A DNA stretch of 64,000 nucleotides, taken from contig JAEPNO010000016.1 of NCBI GenBank assembly GCA_017643365.1, positions 1-64,000 of the forward strand, given 5' to 3'. How positions within the stretch are numbered: the first letter of the stretch is position 1; the number at the start of each line of letters is the position of its first letter. The translations under genes were made by a program, and so were the position numbers. The notes under the pieces are model-generated. The model did not search any database. It saw only the letters and a list, made by a program, of their open reading frames with translations, and was not told the DNA's origin. This DNA comes from Balneolaceae bacterium (lineage in GTDB: Bacteria; Bacteroidota; Rhodothermia; Balneolales; Balneolaceae). Positions 10,327-60,765 of this stretch are shown here, one piece after another.

Positions 10327-12597
10327 ATGTCTGAAACCTACCGAGCTCTTACCCGAAAATACCGCCCAAACTCGTTCGAGGATATTGTCTCACAAGATCA
10401 TGTGAGCAACACATTGTTAAACGCCATCAAGCAAAACCGACTGTCGCACGCTTACATGTTTTGCGGTCCGCGAGGGGTTGGTAAAACTACGATGGCTCGT
10501 GTATTGGCAAGGGTTATCAATCAAATTGATTCCAATATTGATGGCGAGTCGTTGAATCAAACGCTCAACATTATTGAGATGGATGCGGCTTCGAATAACA
10601 AGGTTGAGGACGTTCATCATCTGAGGGAAAGTGTTCGCATCCCGCCGCAGAATGGCCGCTACAAAGTGTTTATTGTGGACGAAGTGCACATGCTCTCGAA
10701 AGCAGCTTTTAATGCGCTGCTAAAAACATTGGAAGAACCGCCTGAGCACGCCATTTTCATTTTTGCCACTACTGAGCCGCACAAAGTGCTACCAACTATT
10801 TTATCGCGTGTTCAACGATTTGATTTCAAGCGGATTTCGGTGGATGAAATCGTATCCCGACTTCGTAAAATTGCGCAAGATGAGCACATTCAAATTGATG
10901 AGGAATCGCTACACGTAATTGCTAAAAAAGCAGATGGAGCCCTCCGCGATGCACTTGGCTTGATGGATCAAGCGATTGCCTTTTGCGGTGATCAGATCAC
11001 CCACAACGAATTGCTGCAGGCTCTAAATGTTGTTGGCACGGAGCGGTTGTTTGAGTTTATGAATTGTGTGAAGTCGCGCGATGCCGATGCCGGACTACAA
11101 CTCATCAATACGCTGCTTCAGGAAGGGTATGATATTCAGGAATTTCTGATTGGATTGACCGAGCATTTACGGAATTTGTACATCGCGCATCACAGTCCGC
11201 AGTTGTATTTGGTGGAAGCCTCGGATGACACCAAGGCTCGTTATCAACAAACCGCACAAGATTTTAGTCGCGACGATTTGATGCGTATGATGCATATGAT
11301 CAGCGAAGCACAAATCAAACTAAAAGACGCTAATCAGCCTAGAATTCAGTTCGAAATTACCCTGCTGAAGCTCATCCACATGGAAAAGAGCGAAAACCTT
11401 GCGAAACTTCTTACCGAGCTTGAGGAAGTAAAAAAAAACTTTAGGAGTCAGGGGACAGAGTTACAGAGTGACGAAGTAACAGAGTTACAAAGTAAGGACT
11501 CACAACAAGTCAGGGAGCCGGAACATCCCTCAACAGGCTCGGGAACTGGAACTGAGGGGCAAAGGAACACAGGAACAAAGGAGCAAAGTGAGCTAGTACC
11601 TGAATCGGATAGCGATTTAGAAGTTCCTCATCAAGATGCTGAAATTAGTAGTAGCAGTAGTAATAATGGATTAGAAACTTCGGAAGTAGCAGAGGAGCAA
11701 AGGAATGTCCCCTCGACAGGCTCGGGAACCGGAACTGAGGGGCAAAGGAGCACAGGGACACAGGGGCAAAGGGAGATCCCTCGACAGGCTCGGGAGCCGG
11801 TTTCAGAATTGAATAGCAATCCGGTGGAGTCTGAACAAAATGTCGACCAAAACAACAATGGATTCCATCAACCTGAAGACGAGATAGAAAAAAAGTCCCC
11901 TCTTGAGAGGGGATTTAGGGGTGTGTCAGAAAACACTGACGGAAGCCAAGTTAGTAATGGAAACCCTCCATCCAACGGAATACCAAAGCCAGAGTTAGAA
12001 GCTAAAACGAGTGATTCGGTTATCGATACAGCTCAAATAGTCAATTCGGAACCTGAGTCGCCGGCAACAGATTCCATCATCGATGAGTTTGATATGGTGG
12101 GCGCACCGGCATTGGTTACGGATGTAACTCACCAAGCAAAGAAACTGCATTTAAGCAGCAATGGAAATAATGTGGTTACCGCCGAAGTTAAGGTTGTAGC
12201 TGAGCCTGAAGTGACACGGGACCCCGATCAAAAACTTACTTTTGAAGAAGTCCGAGCGGCTTGGCCAAAGTTTTTAGAAACATTGGGTAATCGTGTTCCA
12301 AAAATTCTGGAATTACAAGTTCAACGTGTGAAGCCAACTGAGCTCAAAGGAATGGAGTTGACGCTGGAGTGTGATAACCCTTTGGCACAACGCATGCTTA
12401 AGGAACAGGAAATGGAATTAACGCCCATTCTAAAGGAACACATCGGCTGCCGATTGCGTTTTAACCCCATAGTAGTGCAAAACACAGAGACCCGACAAAA
12501 GGCTTCAAATCCGTACGAACGGTTTAAAGAAATTCAAGAAAAAGACCCCATTTTGCGTGAATTGGTTGAGCGCTTTGGGGCAGAACTCGAATATTAA
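10327..12597 (+). CDS. dnaX: DNA polymerase III subunit gamma/tau
   Basis: 756 residues from ATG 10327 (MSETYRALTRKYRP); a TTG 9 bases upstream is less likely. The protein is the AAA+ clamp-loader motor: Walker A GPRGVGKT at 47-54, Walker B FIVDEVHML near 116-123, sensor FATTEPHKVLPTILSR. The four-Cys zinc module that normally follows Walker A in bacterial DnaX is absent; the region reads NQIDSNIDGESLNQTLNIIE. The C-terminal tau-like part (about 600-756) is joined by a long hydrophilic linker (about 370-590) that contains translated copies of intergenic repeats. The gene is first of a dnaX-ybaB-recR operon. Confidence 0.95.
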   Translation: MSETYRALTRKYRPNSFEDIVSQDHVSNTLLNAIKQNRLSHAYMFCGPRGVGKTTMARVLARVINQIDSNIDGESLNQTLNIIEMDAASNNKVEDVHHLRESVRIPPQNGRYKVFIVDEVHMLSKAAFNALLKTLEEPPEHAIFIFATTEPHKVLPTILSRVQRFDFKRISVDEIVSRLRKIAQDEHIQIDEESLHVIAKKADGALRDALGLMDQAIAFCGDQITHNELLQALNVVGTERLFEFMNCVKSRDADAGLQLINTLLQEGYDIQEFLIGLTEHLRNLYIAHHSPQLYLVEASDDTKARYQQTAQDFSRDDLMRMMHMISEAQIKLKDANQPRIQFEITLLKLIHMEKSENLAKLLTELEEVKKNFRSQGTELQSDEVTELQSKDSQQVREPEHPSTGSGTGTEGQRNTGTKEQSELVPESDSDLEVPHQDAEISSSSSNNGLETSEVAEEQRNVPSTGSGTGTEGQRSTGTQGQREIPRQAREPVSELNSNPVESEQNVDQNNNGFHQPEDEIEKKSPLERGFRGVSENTDGSQVSNGNPPSNGIPKPELEAKTSDSVIDTAQIVNSEPESPATDSIIDEFDMVGAPALVTDVTHQAKKLHLSSNGNNVVTAEVKVVAEPEVTRDPDQKLTFEEVRAAWPKFLETLGNRVPKILELQVQRVKPTELKGMELTLECDNPLAQRMLKEQEMELTPILKEHIGCRLRFNPIVVQNTETRQKASNPYERFKEIQEKDPILRELVERFGAELEY
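11459..11930 (+). repeat. Intergenic-type repeats embedded in the dnaX reading frame
   Basis: Three repeat types lie in frame in the linker. At 11459-11493 there is a GTTACAGAG-type unit (30 of 34 bases match the reverse complement of the intergenic 21923-21957). Around 11530-11590 and 11710-11770 there are two copies of an ACAGGCTCGGGAAC unit about 88% alike, with a third partial copy at 11777-11800 that matches the intergenic 21896-21919 exactly on the other strand. Near 11898-11922 there is a CCCCTCTTGAGAGGGGATTT hairpin unit. They encode Gly/Thr/Gln-rich text such as GSGTGTEGQR and SPLERGFRGV. Confidence 0.85.
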
Positions 12598-21639: not shown

Positions 21640-21864
21640 ATGAAAGACCTCTCGAAATACACGTACATCGAACTCTATGACATGCTCCATCATGTAAACG
21701 AATTCAAATATCCTGAGAAGATTAAGGCATTGCAGGCAGAAATCGAACATCGAAAAGAAATTGGGGAAGTACCCACCGAGCTAGTCCCAAAACCGGATTG
21801 GAGCGCTTTTCGGTTTCGAAAAAAGAAAGAAACAGAAATTAATCCGACACACCCCACTTTGTAA
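21640..21864 (+). CDS. Small hypothetical protein
   Basis: This 74-residue protein starts 4 bases after the RraB-like gene and is likely cotranscribed. It contains a helical YIELYDMLHHVNEFKYPEKIKAL segment ending with LQAEIEHRK, similar in pattern to short YP-containing helical motifs found in scattered bacterial proteins. The rest is a Lys-rich linker. Its last codons (NPTHPTL) run into a repeat region, so the original C-terminus may have been altered by repeat insertion. Function unknown. Confidence 0.6.
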   Translation: MKDLSKYTYIELYDMLHHVNEFKYPEKIKALQAEIEHRKEIGEVPTELVPKPDWSAFRFRKKKETEINPTHPTL

Positions 21865-21962
21865 CTTAGATACTTTGTAACTCTGCAACTCTACCCCGGC
21901 TCCCGAGCCTGTCGAGGGATGCCACTTTGTAACTCTGTAACTTAGTCGCTTTGTAACCCGAT
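21851..21962. repeat. Intergenic repeat sharing units with dnaX
   Basis: It contains several copies of a CTTTGTAAC(T)C unit (around 21857, 21872, 21923, 21949) and, at 21896-21919, a CCGGCTCCCGAGCCTGTCGA-type core. Both are found, inverted, inside the dnaX linker (11459-11493 and 11777-11800). It sits between convergent small-gene and NUDIX coding regions. Confidence 0.85.
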
Positions 21963-53112: not shown

Positions 53113-53370
53113 TTAGTGACTAGATCTAAAATACTAGCCTTATCCTAATAAAAAGTCATCCAGAACCGCCGGTTGGCGGTGAAGGATCTGCACAATGCTA
53201 TCTGTGGTTAGATATTCCATTGTGAAGACTCCTCGATTCCTCGGAGTGACTAGTTCTAAATGCTAGCTTTATCCTAATTAACAAGTCATCCAGAGCACAG
53301 CGAAGGATCTGCACAATTCTATCCGTGGGTAGATATTTATTCGTGAAGACTCCTCGGTTCCTCGGAGAAA
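53113..53370. repeat. Tandem repeat array, left part (units 1 and 2)
   Basis: Units of about 125 bases start with AAAGTCATCC, contain GAAGGATCTGCACAAT, a GTGGTTAGATAT-like box and end with GTGAAGACTCCTCGATTCCT then CGGAGTGACTAG. The array starts with the tail of another unit near 53117. Unit 1 covers about 53148-53275 and unit 2 about 53280-53370. Confidence 0.88.
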
Positions 53371-53371
53371 G

Positions 53372-53728
53372 TCACTTAAATTTCTCTATATATTTCTGAA
53401 AGTATGGGTCTTCCAAAATCTTCTTTGGTGGCCATTCACCTACTATTTCCTTATTCAAAAACTTCCATCCGGGATTAAAATTATTAATCAATGAATCTTT
53501 CCATTTTCTTGACTTCCCCTTGATTCTTTTTTCAGCGGCTATCGCTTCTATCATTGTTGGAAACACATCATAAAAGACTAAATTATAACAATAGTTTTTC
53601 CCTGCAAAAGTCTCGGGTTTCCCTCTTTCCAGATAATGCTCTACAACCCTTCTAGGTAAATTATTTGAAGCCCCTGTATAAAGTACACTTCGGGATGGAT
53701 TGGTGGTTATGTATACAGCAAAGTCCAC
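53372..53728 (-). CDS. GIY-YIG nuclease domain protein (UPF0213-like)
   Basis: This 118-residue single-domain protein has the GIY-YIG pattern as FAVYITTNPSRSVLYTGASN followed by NLPRRVVEHY, then the catalytic NYCYNLVFYD and IEAIAAEKRIKGKSRKWKDS with the metal-binding Glu in AAEKRIK. The fold cuts DNA in homing enzymes and UvrC, but many small family members have no known role. It lies inside a tandem repeat array, with array units on both sides; unit 2 ends at its stop codon and unit 3 begins 29 bases after its start. Transmission together with the repeats is possible. Confidence 0.87.
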   Translation of the reverse strand: MDFAVYITTNPSRSVLYTGASNNLPRRVVEHYLERGKPETFAGKNYCYNLVFYDVFPTMIEAIAAEKRIKGKSRKWKDSLINNFNPGWKFLNKEIVGEWPPKKILEDPYFQKYIEKFK

Positions 53729-53756
53729 TATTTACAATAATAAACTATTAGTTATT

Positions 53757-54095
53757 GAACAAGTCATCCTGAACCGTCGGCTGGCGGTGAAGATCTACAC
53801 AATGCTAACTGTGGTTAGATATATATTCGTGAAGACTCCTCGATTCCTCGGAGTGACTAGATCTAAAAAACCAGCTTCACACTAAATTAAAAAGTCATCC
53901 AGGGCGCAGTGATGTATCTGCAAAATGCCGACTGTGGCAGATACTCAATTGTGAAGACTCCTCGGTTCCTCGGAGTGACTAGATCTAGAAAACCAGTTTC
54001 ACACTAAATTAAAAGTCATCCAGAGCGGAGAGATGGATCTGCACAATGCTATCTGTGGCTTGATACGCATTTGGGAATACTAATCGGAGAGGCTG
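53757..54095. repeat. Tandem repeat array, right part (units 3 to 5)
   Basis: Units 3 (about 53757-53885), 4 (about 53889-54005) and 5 (about 54010-54095, truncated) share the AAGTCATCC start, GATCTGCACAATGCTA-like middle and AGACTCCTCGRTTCCTCGGA ending of the left part. The 3' half carries a GTGACTAGATCTARAAAACC box with a TTCACACTAAATT tail in this part. The gene-free stretch from 53729 to 54109 holds only this. Confidence 0.88.
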
Positions 54096-54109
54096 AAATA
54101 AAAACTTGA

Positions 54110-59142: not shown

Positions 59143-60765
59143 ATGAAAATACGTTTACAATCTTCTCGATTAGGGGTAGGCCTCTTGTGTGGTCTTTTTA
59201 TTTTTTTATTTACAACCCAAACTTTTGCTCAACCCGATTTACCCAATTCCTACAATGTCCCTGAACAGGCATTAAGTGTAGAGGATATCACCGGAACACT
59301 CCATGGGTTTTCAATTTTTGGTGATCAACCGTACGACAATGCTGGAAAAAGCGTTGCCTCGGGAGATATAAATGGTGACGGATACGATGACATCATTATA
59401 GGCGCATTTCACGCCGACGTTGGCGACAGCACGGACGCCGGAAAAACCTATGTCGTTTTTGGTTCCGCAAATGGAGTAGATCATGAATTTGATTTATCAA
59501 CTCTGGATGGCTCGAATGGCTTTACAGCTAACGGGGTAAGAATGACAAGTGAATCAGGGCATTCGGTTTCTTCCGGAGATATTAATGGCGACGGATATGA
59601 CGACGTTATTATTGGAGCATGGGGTGAATATGTAACCAACGCTACCGGTAATACATTCGTAATTTGGGGAAAGGCAAGCGGTTATAGCGCAAGCATCGAT
59701 CTTAAAAATGCTGATGCAAACTCCTTTTTTACGATAAATGGAATCGATTTTCAAGATCGTGCCGGTTATTCGGTAGCAAGCGGAGATGTAAATGGCGATA
59801 GCTATGACGATGTTATAATTGCAGCTCAAGGGGCTGATCCGGACTCAAGAAATTTTGCTGGAGAAACCTATATTGTATACGGAAAAAGCAGTTCGTTTGG
59901 AACTAGTTTTGATCTATCGTCGCTTGATGGCTCCAACGGTTTTACCTTAGAAGGTATAGATGGTAATGACGTATCAGCTACAACGGTTAGCTCTGGCGAT
60001 GTTAATGGCGACGGTTATGACGATGTTATAATTGGTGCCTACCAAGCCCGACCTGGTGGGCGCGCATTTGCCGGAGAAGCTTACGTTTATTTTGGTAAAG
60101 CAGTAGCCGACAGTGCAAATATTATCCTTTCAGATATTGATGGAACCAATGGATTTCAACTAAACGGGCACCTGGCTAATGACCTTTTCGGCTTTCACGT
60201 TAGTAATGGAGATATAAATGGCGATGGGTATGATGACGTGTTCGTTCTAGCGTTTCATGCAGATCCGAATGGCCAAGAAAACGCCGGAAAAGTTTATGTT
60301 ATTTTTGGGAAGGCTTCCGGCTTTAGTTCATCTATTGAAGTGTCGGCTTTAAACGGAACTGATGGCTTTACTCTTGAAGGCGCAAATGCTAATGATAATG
60401 CCGGTTATAGTCTTGAAGCGGCAGACATTAATGGAGATGGCTATGAAGACCTTTTTATAGGTGCCCAAAGTGCAACTGTTAATGGAAAATCGGCTGCTGG
60501 AGAGATGTATGTGTTCTTTGGGAAAGCCTCGGGATACGATGCTACCTTTCCTTTGTCTTCAATCAATGGCGTGAATGGGTTTAAGATTACCGGAAGTGAT
60601 TTCAACCAAAATATTGGTCATTCACTCGCAGGTGGCGACGTAAATGGCGACGGATATAATGATGTAATTATTGGAGCCTACCAATCAAACGCCGGAAGTG
60701 ATGCAGGTGCTGGGGTTGTACACGTATTTACAAATACCCGAAAGCAAACCATTACGGGTAGCTAA
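59143..60765 (+). CDS. FG-GAP (integrin-alpha-like) repeat protein, N-terminal part
   Basis: This 540-residue part has a signal peptide (LLCGLFIFLFTTQTFAQ) and seven FG-GAP blades with Ca-binding D-x-N-G-D motifs: near nt 59369, 59577, 59785, 59998, 60210, 60423 and 60636 (GDINGDGYDDIIIG and similar), spaced about 210 bases. Seven blades form a beta-propeller. The frame stops at TAA 60763, directly before a domain homologous to part of the S8 peptidase C-terminal region. The following ORF is in the same frame, so this looks like the first part of a longer T9SS cargo. Confidence 0.85.
   Translation: MKIRLQSSRLGVGLLCGLFIFLFTTQTFAQPDLPNSYNVPEQALSVEDITGTLHGFSIFGDQPYDNAGKSVASGDINGDGYDDIIIGAFHADVGDSTDAGKTYVVFGSANGVDHEFDLSTLDGSNGFTANGVRMTSESGHSVSSGDINGDGYDDVIIGAWGEYVTNATGNTFVIWGKASGYSASIDLKNADANSFFTINGIDFQDRAGYSVASGDVNGDSYDDVIIAAQGADPDSRNFAGETYIVYGKSSSFGTSFDLSSLDGSNGFTLEGIDGNDVSATTVSSGDVNGDGYDDVIIGAYQARPGGRAFAGEAYVYFGKAVADSANIILSDIDGTNGFQLNGHLANDLFGFHVSNGDINGDGYDDVFVLAFHADPNGQENAGKVYVIFGKASGFSSSIEVSALNGTDGFTLEGANANDNAGYSLEAADINGDGYEDLFIGAQSATVNGKSAAGEMYVFFGKASGYDATFPLSSINGVNGFKITGSDFNQNIGHSLAGGDVNGDGYNDVIIGAYQSNAGSDAGAGVVHVFTNTRKQTITGS

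Follow-up and report, generated by a model that had tools for sequence, protein, structure and literature searches.

The analysed window, a stretch of 64,000 nucleotides from a Balneolaceae bacterium, contains a dnaX gene whose linker translates octamer arrays, three CCCTCGACAGGCTCGGGAAC CG units, and one CCCCTCTTGAGAGGGG hairpin (Table 1). A sequence-only reading of the window had claimed that three families of repeats are translated inside the DnaX linker, and all units were indeed found there in the reading frame. The CG family, however, which had been described as two full copies and one partial copy, comprises three units in the linker. Copies 1 and 2 are 183 bp apart, and the 66-nt block around copy 2 is 89% identical to the block of copy 1. 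The CG unit occurs in the linker in two different frames, which points to an insertion of DNA rather than of a selected peptide. The octamer array has no stop codon in any of the three frames of the forward strand but a TAA in each of the three frames of the reverse strand, and the hairpin is open in four of its six frames. The octamer arrays consist of 8-nt units in tandem and are not palindromic, and the CG unit is mainly found nested within them. Both are separate, less well explained repeats beside the hairpin. As had been noticed before, octamers and one CG unit also occur, inverted, between two ordinary reading frames. By direct reading this composite provides the stop codon (TAA, 21862-21864) of a small ORF starting at 21640, and it ends just short of a convergent NUDIX-type ORF.

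Table 1. The dnaX gene, the repeats of its linker and the inverted intergenic composite, in window positions
Feature	Position	Strand	Reading
dnaX (DNA polymerase III gamma/tau)	10327..12597	+	ORF; Pfam DNA_pol3_delta2, DNAX_ATPase_lid, DNA_pol3_gamma3
Octamer array, GTTACAGA type	11452..11493	+	translated as TELQSDEVTELQS
CG unit, copy 1 (CCCTCAACAGGCTCGGGAACTGG)	11527..11549	+	frame PSTGSGT
Octamer array, RCAAAGGR type	11559..11592	+	repeat and ORF reading
Short octamer array, RCAAAGGR-related	11689..11706	+	repeat reading
CG unit, copy 2 (CCCTCGACAGGCTCGGGAACCGG)	11710..11732	+	PSTGSGT frame as copy 1
Octamer array, RCAAAGGR type	11742..11775	+	dnaX linker
CG unit, copy 3	11776..11800	+	other frame, IPRQAREP
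Hairpin AAGTCCCCTCTTGAGAGGGGATTTAGGGGTGTGT, palindrome and GGGGTG tag	11893..11926	+	translated as KSPLERGFRGVS
Composite of octamer array, CG unit (21896-21918) and octamer array	21851..21962	-	intergenic; inverted relative to dnaX

The window holds further repeats of other kinds. An 81-nt repeat is present three times at intervals of about 800 bp (1267-1347, 2082-2162, and 2884-2964; family D5), the copies being 78-86% alike. A block of several intergenic repeats of about 120 nt with GTCATCCAGAGCGCAGCGAAGGATCTGCACAATGC extends from 53115 to 54100 (D3, D4, D6, D10), and seven coding repeats of 213 nt with the FG-GAP/integrin-like pattern GD(I/V)NGDGYDDVIIGA from 59362 to 60689 (D1, D2).

Counted from a common start, DnaX has 755 residues here and 639 residues in the sister species of the same genus (G002), and the comparison with a close relative that had been proposed earlier thus yields a difference of about 116 residues, which is owed to the linker. 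At this point the sister dnaX carries an octamer array of its own (ELQSDxVPEVQSGE), and it has neither a CG unit nor the hairpin. Therefore, the octamers in dnaX appear to predate the CG units and the hairpin. A 27-mer of the hairpin is absent from the entire genome of the sister and present in 38 of the 129 genomes of the order, all belonging to one family and to eight of 39 genera. The long DnaX linkers of other genera of the order are of plain low complexity, with no palindromes seen in them, and dnaX is thus not a general sink for such sequences.

The genome to which the window belongs (3.77 Mb) was searched for each unit with reversed patterns as controls, and the coding context of the copies was judged on individual genome stretches. 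With up to one mismatch the hairpin is found in 14 places (reversed control: 0), the CG unit has eight matches (0), and the octamer pair has 85 (10). All three families recur outside dnaX and are found between genes instead of being confined to the linker, in agreement with the idea of insertion put forward in the sequence-only reading. Three of the eight CG units of the genome lie within one 476-bp stretch of dnaX, for which the chance is about 1e-6 after correction. These counts bear on the possibility that the disordered linker has simply drifted into low complexity and resembles intergenic repeats by chance. The linkers of DnaX are long and weakly conserved, and the plain composition of the other long ones in the order would fit such drift. 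Nevertheless, the hairpin shares an exact 27-mer with intergenic copies, the reversed hairpin and CG patterns have no match at all, the CG units are clustered, and the same hairpin is present in purD and hsdM. Drift is refuted by the repeat counts and the exact intergenic identity, and we regard it as practically out of the question.

In purD the hairpin is read in frame (VAST-NTPLNPLSRGDF-STMDINFD) with a net gain of 24 nt compared to G002 and the family. In hsdM it adds KSPLEKGFRGVSE, and 12 residues (36 nt) are absent from the solved homologue 3lkd. The ilvN gene of the same genome (L044, C22:33455) is ruled out as a further in-frame insertion because its stop codon is supplied by the hairpin. 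Three protein genes have thus gained in-frame sequence from the hairpin, and a fourth is terminated by it. The proposed spread of small palindromic elements with the reading frame kept accordingly holds in part. It is supported for the hairpin, which resides in dnaX, purD, and hsdM, is missing from the sister genome, and is restricted to a minority of the genera. This support does not extend to the octamers, with their tandem structure and the sister's own array at the same point, nor to the CG unit with its mainly nested occurrence. No target-site duplication was seen by eye in the listed hairpin copies, which include no exact pair of empty and filled sites.

The exact 30-mer of the hairpin was found in 87 GTDB stretches from several phyla (Balneolaceae, Ignavibacteria, Melioribacteraceae, Phycisphaerae, Gammaproteobacteria, and others), many of which adjoin a DUF559 gene. 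About 30 DUF559 (PF04480) ORFs were found in these stretches and in related loci, typically preceded by the hairpin and followed by its inverse, and one such element is encoded in the genome under study (C18:1640). The sequence of the dnaX hairpin is the terminal repeat of these elements, a link that is absent from the earlier account of the dnaX repeats. The full-length form consists of a palindrome with an inward GGGGTG-type tag, the DUF559 gene, and the tag and palindrome in inverted orientation, while the dispersed form is a single end alone of about 34 nt. Three near-identical elements (L093, L162, L253) share the left end AGTCCCC next to unrelated outside sequences; their right end is not sharp. 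MITEs have the terminal inverted repeats in common with an autonomous element; the solitary hairpin equals one end of the DUF559 element, but it is not a deletion derivative with both ends. Another DUF559 gene of the genome under study is flanked by a second palindrome, CCCTCTCCTNNAGGAGAGGG, which likewise is found in 14 places of this genome.

To score flanks in an unselected sample, 114 DUF559 genes of the order were chosen by their DUF559 score alone, and 250 bp on each side were inspected for perfect, GC-rich stems of 7 bp or more. Hairpins on both sides were found at 70 of 110 DUF559 genes compared to none of 30 dnaX genes, none of 18 purD genes, one of 39 ORFs of the window, 4 of 19 RAYT genes, and no shuffled sequence. 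About a third of the DUF559 genes have no detectable hairpin on one or both sides. Across the phylum, with embedded copies included, 14 of 24 DUF559 genes are flanked on both sides. The palindrome class differs by DUF559 subtype, and the distances between the DUF559 proteins correlate with those between their hairpins (Mantel r=0.27; highest value in 1000 permutations 0.128), to which shared ancestry contributes. The predicted covariation of stem and tag sequences was not significant (0.572 compared to 0.561, sd 0.007), and the enrichment of the tag motif inside (50/136) over outside (25/134) is weak, at about twofold. In the order, DUF559 is present in 36 of the 38 genomes with the hairpin and in 38 of the 91 genomes without it; within the family the numbers are 36 of 38 compared to 29 of 54 (p=1.5e-5). 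The sister species G002 has three DUF559 genes without this hairpin, and these genes carry other hairpins.

REP sequences, which are short palindromes with a tag (PMC3733652, PMC6006769), could offer a conventional explanation: the hairpin would belong to an ordinary REP system and be moved by a Y1 (RAYT/TnpA-REP) transposase, and RAYT genes are present in the genome under study and in its relatives. However, the palindrome that surrounds its RAYT gene is another one, AAGGACTTCAGTCCTTCG, RAYT genes have hairpins on both sides only a third as often as DUF559 genes (p=0.0008 for the fractions given above), and the recurrent neighbour in the 87 exact-hairpin stretches is DUF559, which was the neighbour searched for there. 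The AAGGACTTCAGTCCTTCG palindromes and the low flanking rate disfavour RAYT as mobiliser of the hairpin, and we consider this origin very improbable. A link of RAYT genes to the CG unit was also sought, and there was no consistent match. The RAYT gene at L278 (C44:160078) lies amid several copies of AAGGACTTCAGTCCTTCG and represents a parallel REP-like system.

DUF559 is not confined to stand-alone genes. Based on Pfam it is found in frame within LeuRS (L239, L403), within HsdR (L241, L398) and HsdM (L404), within MetH between the B12 domains (L394), and within type IIG/ISP enzymes (L240, L387), and it is joined to HemF (L243), HemD (L247), and a PurL-type glutaminase domain (L401). At L243-L248 four genomes have it joined to the HemF N terminus and two to the HemD C terminus, and these junctions perhaps represent one insertion site in a haem operon. 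In LeuRS about 170 residues are inserted between residues 235 and 238 of the T. thermophilus enzyme, and the enzyme is otherwise complete. Several of the genomes with an embedded DUF559 are single-contig assemblies (G043, G216, G240, G330, G403), and misassembly is therefore an unlikely cause. The catalytic motif is intact in all 35 embedded DUF559 domains compared to 124 of 141 stand-alone ones, although detection by profile favours the intact ones. The LeuRS site is polymorphic across genera, being either empty or filled with DUF559. In the family of G175, where 30 LeuRS loci were compared, the loop mostly has 31 residues, and in the few loci that contain DUF559 it has 172-232 residues. Some LeuRS loops (L428, L438, L420) carry other translated intergenic repeats, one of them with GAGCTTGTCGAAGCA, a relative of the CG unit, and in the loop of L428 a GTCATTCCGAGCGAAGCGAAGGAATC sequence is translated that resembles the repeats of about 120 nt at 53115-54100 of the window. 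Pfam scans of the LeuRS, MetH, HsdR, HsdM, and IIG hosts revealed no splicing (Hint) domain, and the host proteins would thus retain the insert. Within essential proteins, DUF559 elements reside in loops and are read in frame, with neither a stop codon nor a splicing domain.

These hosts also allow a reading without any mobile element, in which DUF559 would be a functional fused domain and the palindromes would be nearby terminators or slippage products. Among the hosts are several restriction-modification proteins (HsdR, HsdM, type IIG), to which a nuclease could be of help, and hairpins 3' of genes can be terminators. Yet the insertion is also found in LeuRS, MetH, HemF, HemD, and PurL, which have no known use for a nuclease, and most genera have an empty LeuRS site. 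In addition, the hairpins are present both upstream and downstream of DUF559 genes and, at embedded domains, on both sides within the reading frame. A fused domain of this kind is, in our opinion, quite improbable.

The structure of a hairpin-linked DUF559 protein was modelled with a pLDDT of 91. The best matches of the model are 3hrl and the domain of the homing endonuclease I-Bth0305I (TM 0.66/0.80, probability 1.00), followed by a weaker match to Vsr. 3hrl is itself DUF559-like by profile (E 9e-25), and a profile search independently found 3r3p, a "mobile intron protein" (E 8.5e-4). According to the model, I-Bth0305I is thus the nearest experimentally characterised fold match of DUF559. The residues D55, E66, D68, and H72 are invariant in DUF559. 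Model, profile, and alignment together assign a Vsr-like nuclease fold with conserved acidic and histidine active-site residues to the family.

The palindrome that is dispersed in the genome also forms the inverted ends around a DUF559 gene, and both forms are found in frame in conserved genes. Therefore, the hairpin in dnaX is probably a solitary, non-autonomous relic of the end of a DUF559-linked element. We infer that DUF559 drives the movement of the hairpin. As a putative nuclease similar to Vsr and I-Bth0305I it would recognise its own class of palindrome and cut the DNA, and the element, or one of its ends, might then be copied into the break during repair. Insertions would survive selection between genes; within genes they would do so if they fall into a loop and are read in a frame that is among the four of the hairpin without a stop codon. 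The octamer arrays and CG units would be other repeat families that are tolerated in the same disordered linker. The order of events could also have been the reverse, the palindromes having existed first and spread by other means and DUF559 being a homing endonuclease gene that invaded existing palindromic repeats. Such a history would fit the excess of solitary palindromes over DUF559 genes (14 places compared to five to six genes in this genome), the fold match to a mobile-intron homing endonuclease, and the LeuRS loop, which is occupied by DUF559 in part of the genera and in others by short translated repeats of a different kind. It is more difficult to reconcile with each DUF559 subtype having its own palindrome class and related proteins having related palindromes, with the co-occurrence of the hairpin and DUF559, and with three elements sharing one sharp left end in different surroundings. 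Palindromes preceding DUF559 are thus conceivable but rather unlikely. Concerning the wider claim that DUF559 elements form an unrecognised class of autonomous mobile elements, in which a Vsr/EDxHD nuclease would spread its own gene together with the cognate palindromes and would reside in essential genes as an unspliced extra loop domain, we see about equal reason to accept and to doubt it. If true, the enzyme that has been lacking for small palindromic repeats in coding genes would thereby be provided.

Since the Rickettsia palindromic elements (RPE) it has been asked how palindromic elements of small size get into essential coding genes and are maintained there. RPEs are described as elements of 105-146 bp (PMC2229807) that reside in frame in unrelated conserved genes and add a stop-free peptide (PMC10969869, PMC2229807). 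The sequence-only reading had invoked them for dnaX. The analogy is justified for the in-frame residence of the hairpin in the unrelated conserved genes dnaX, purD, and hsdM, and it fails in other respects. The hairpin is much shorter, with its about 34 nt, and tied to DUF559 genes, and it is found in Balneolaceae, Ignavibacteria, and others while RPEs are Rickettsia-specific. Furthermore, it has a candidate enzyme, whereas a mobilising enzyme is not named in the consulted passages of the RPE reviews. With ordinary genes and RAYT genes as controls, the comparison links the hairpin of dnaX, purD, and hsdM to a single small family of nucleases. DUF559, a family of unknown function, thereby gains a likely role, and the question of mobility becomes testable in the laboratory. 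In addition, the LeuRS and methionine synthase genes of some Bacteroidota carry a whole additional nuclease domain without any indication of splicing. In the open-access literature we found nothing relevant on DUF559 together with palindromes, on nuclease insertions in LeuRS, or on translated palindromes of Bacteroidetes.

REP/RAYT systems are similar in that a short, GC-rich, tagged palindrome is dispersed mostly between genes, inverted copies flank one small enzyme gene, and each enzyme subtype has its own palindrome class. They differ in the enzyme, which is here PF04480 DUF559 with its Vsr-like fold and not a Y1/HUH transposase (PF01797), and in the in-frame presence of the element and the enzyme gene inside essential genes. 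The EDxHD (Vsr-like) homing endonucleases, such as I-Bth0305I, are the closest match in fold and sequence outside DUF559, and DUF559, as a putatively selfish nuclease gene, resides like them at recurrent sites in conserved genes. In contrast, DUF559 is not part of an intron or intein, is flanked by palindromes, and is unspliced as far as can be judged from the sequences. With inteins the elements share a nuclease domain in frame in essential proteins at a polymorphic site, but no Hint domain accompanies DUF559 and the host protein would keep the insert. The DUF559 element is thus placed outside RPE, REP/RAYT systems, and inteins because it lacks a defining feature of each. By analogy, it is best described as an element with a REP/RAYT-like layout, an RPE-like residence in frame, and an enzyme resembling the homing endonucleases.
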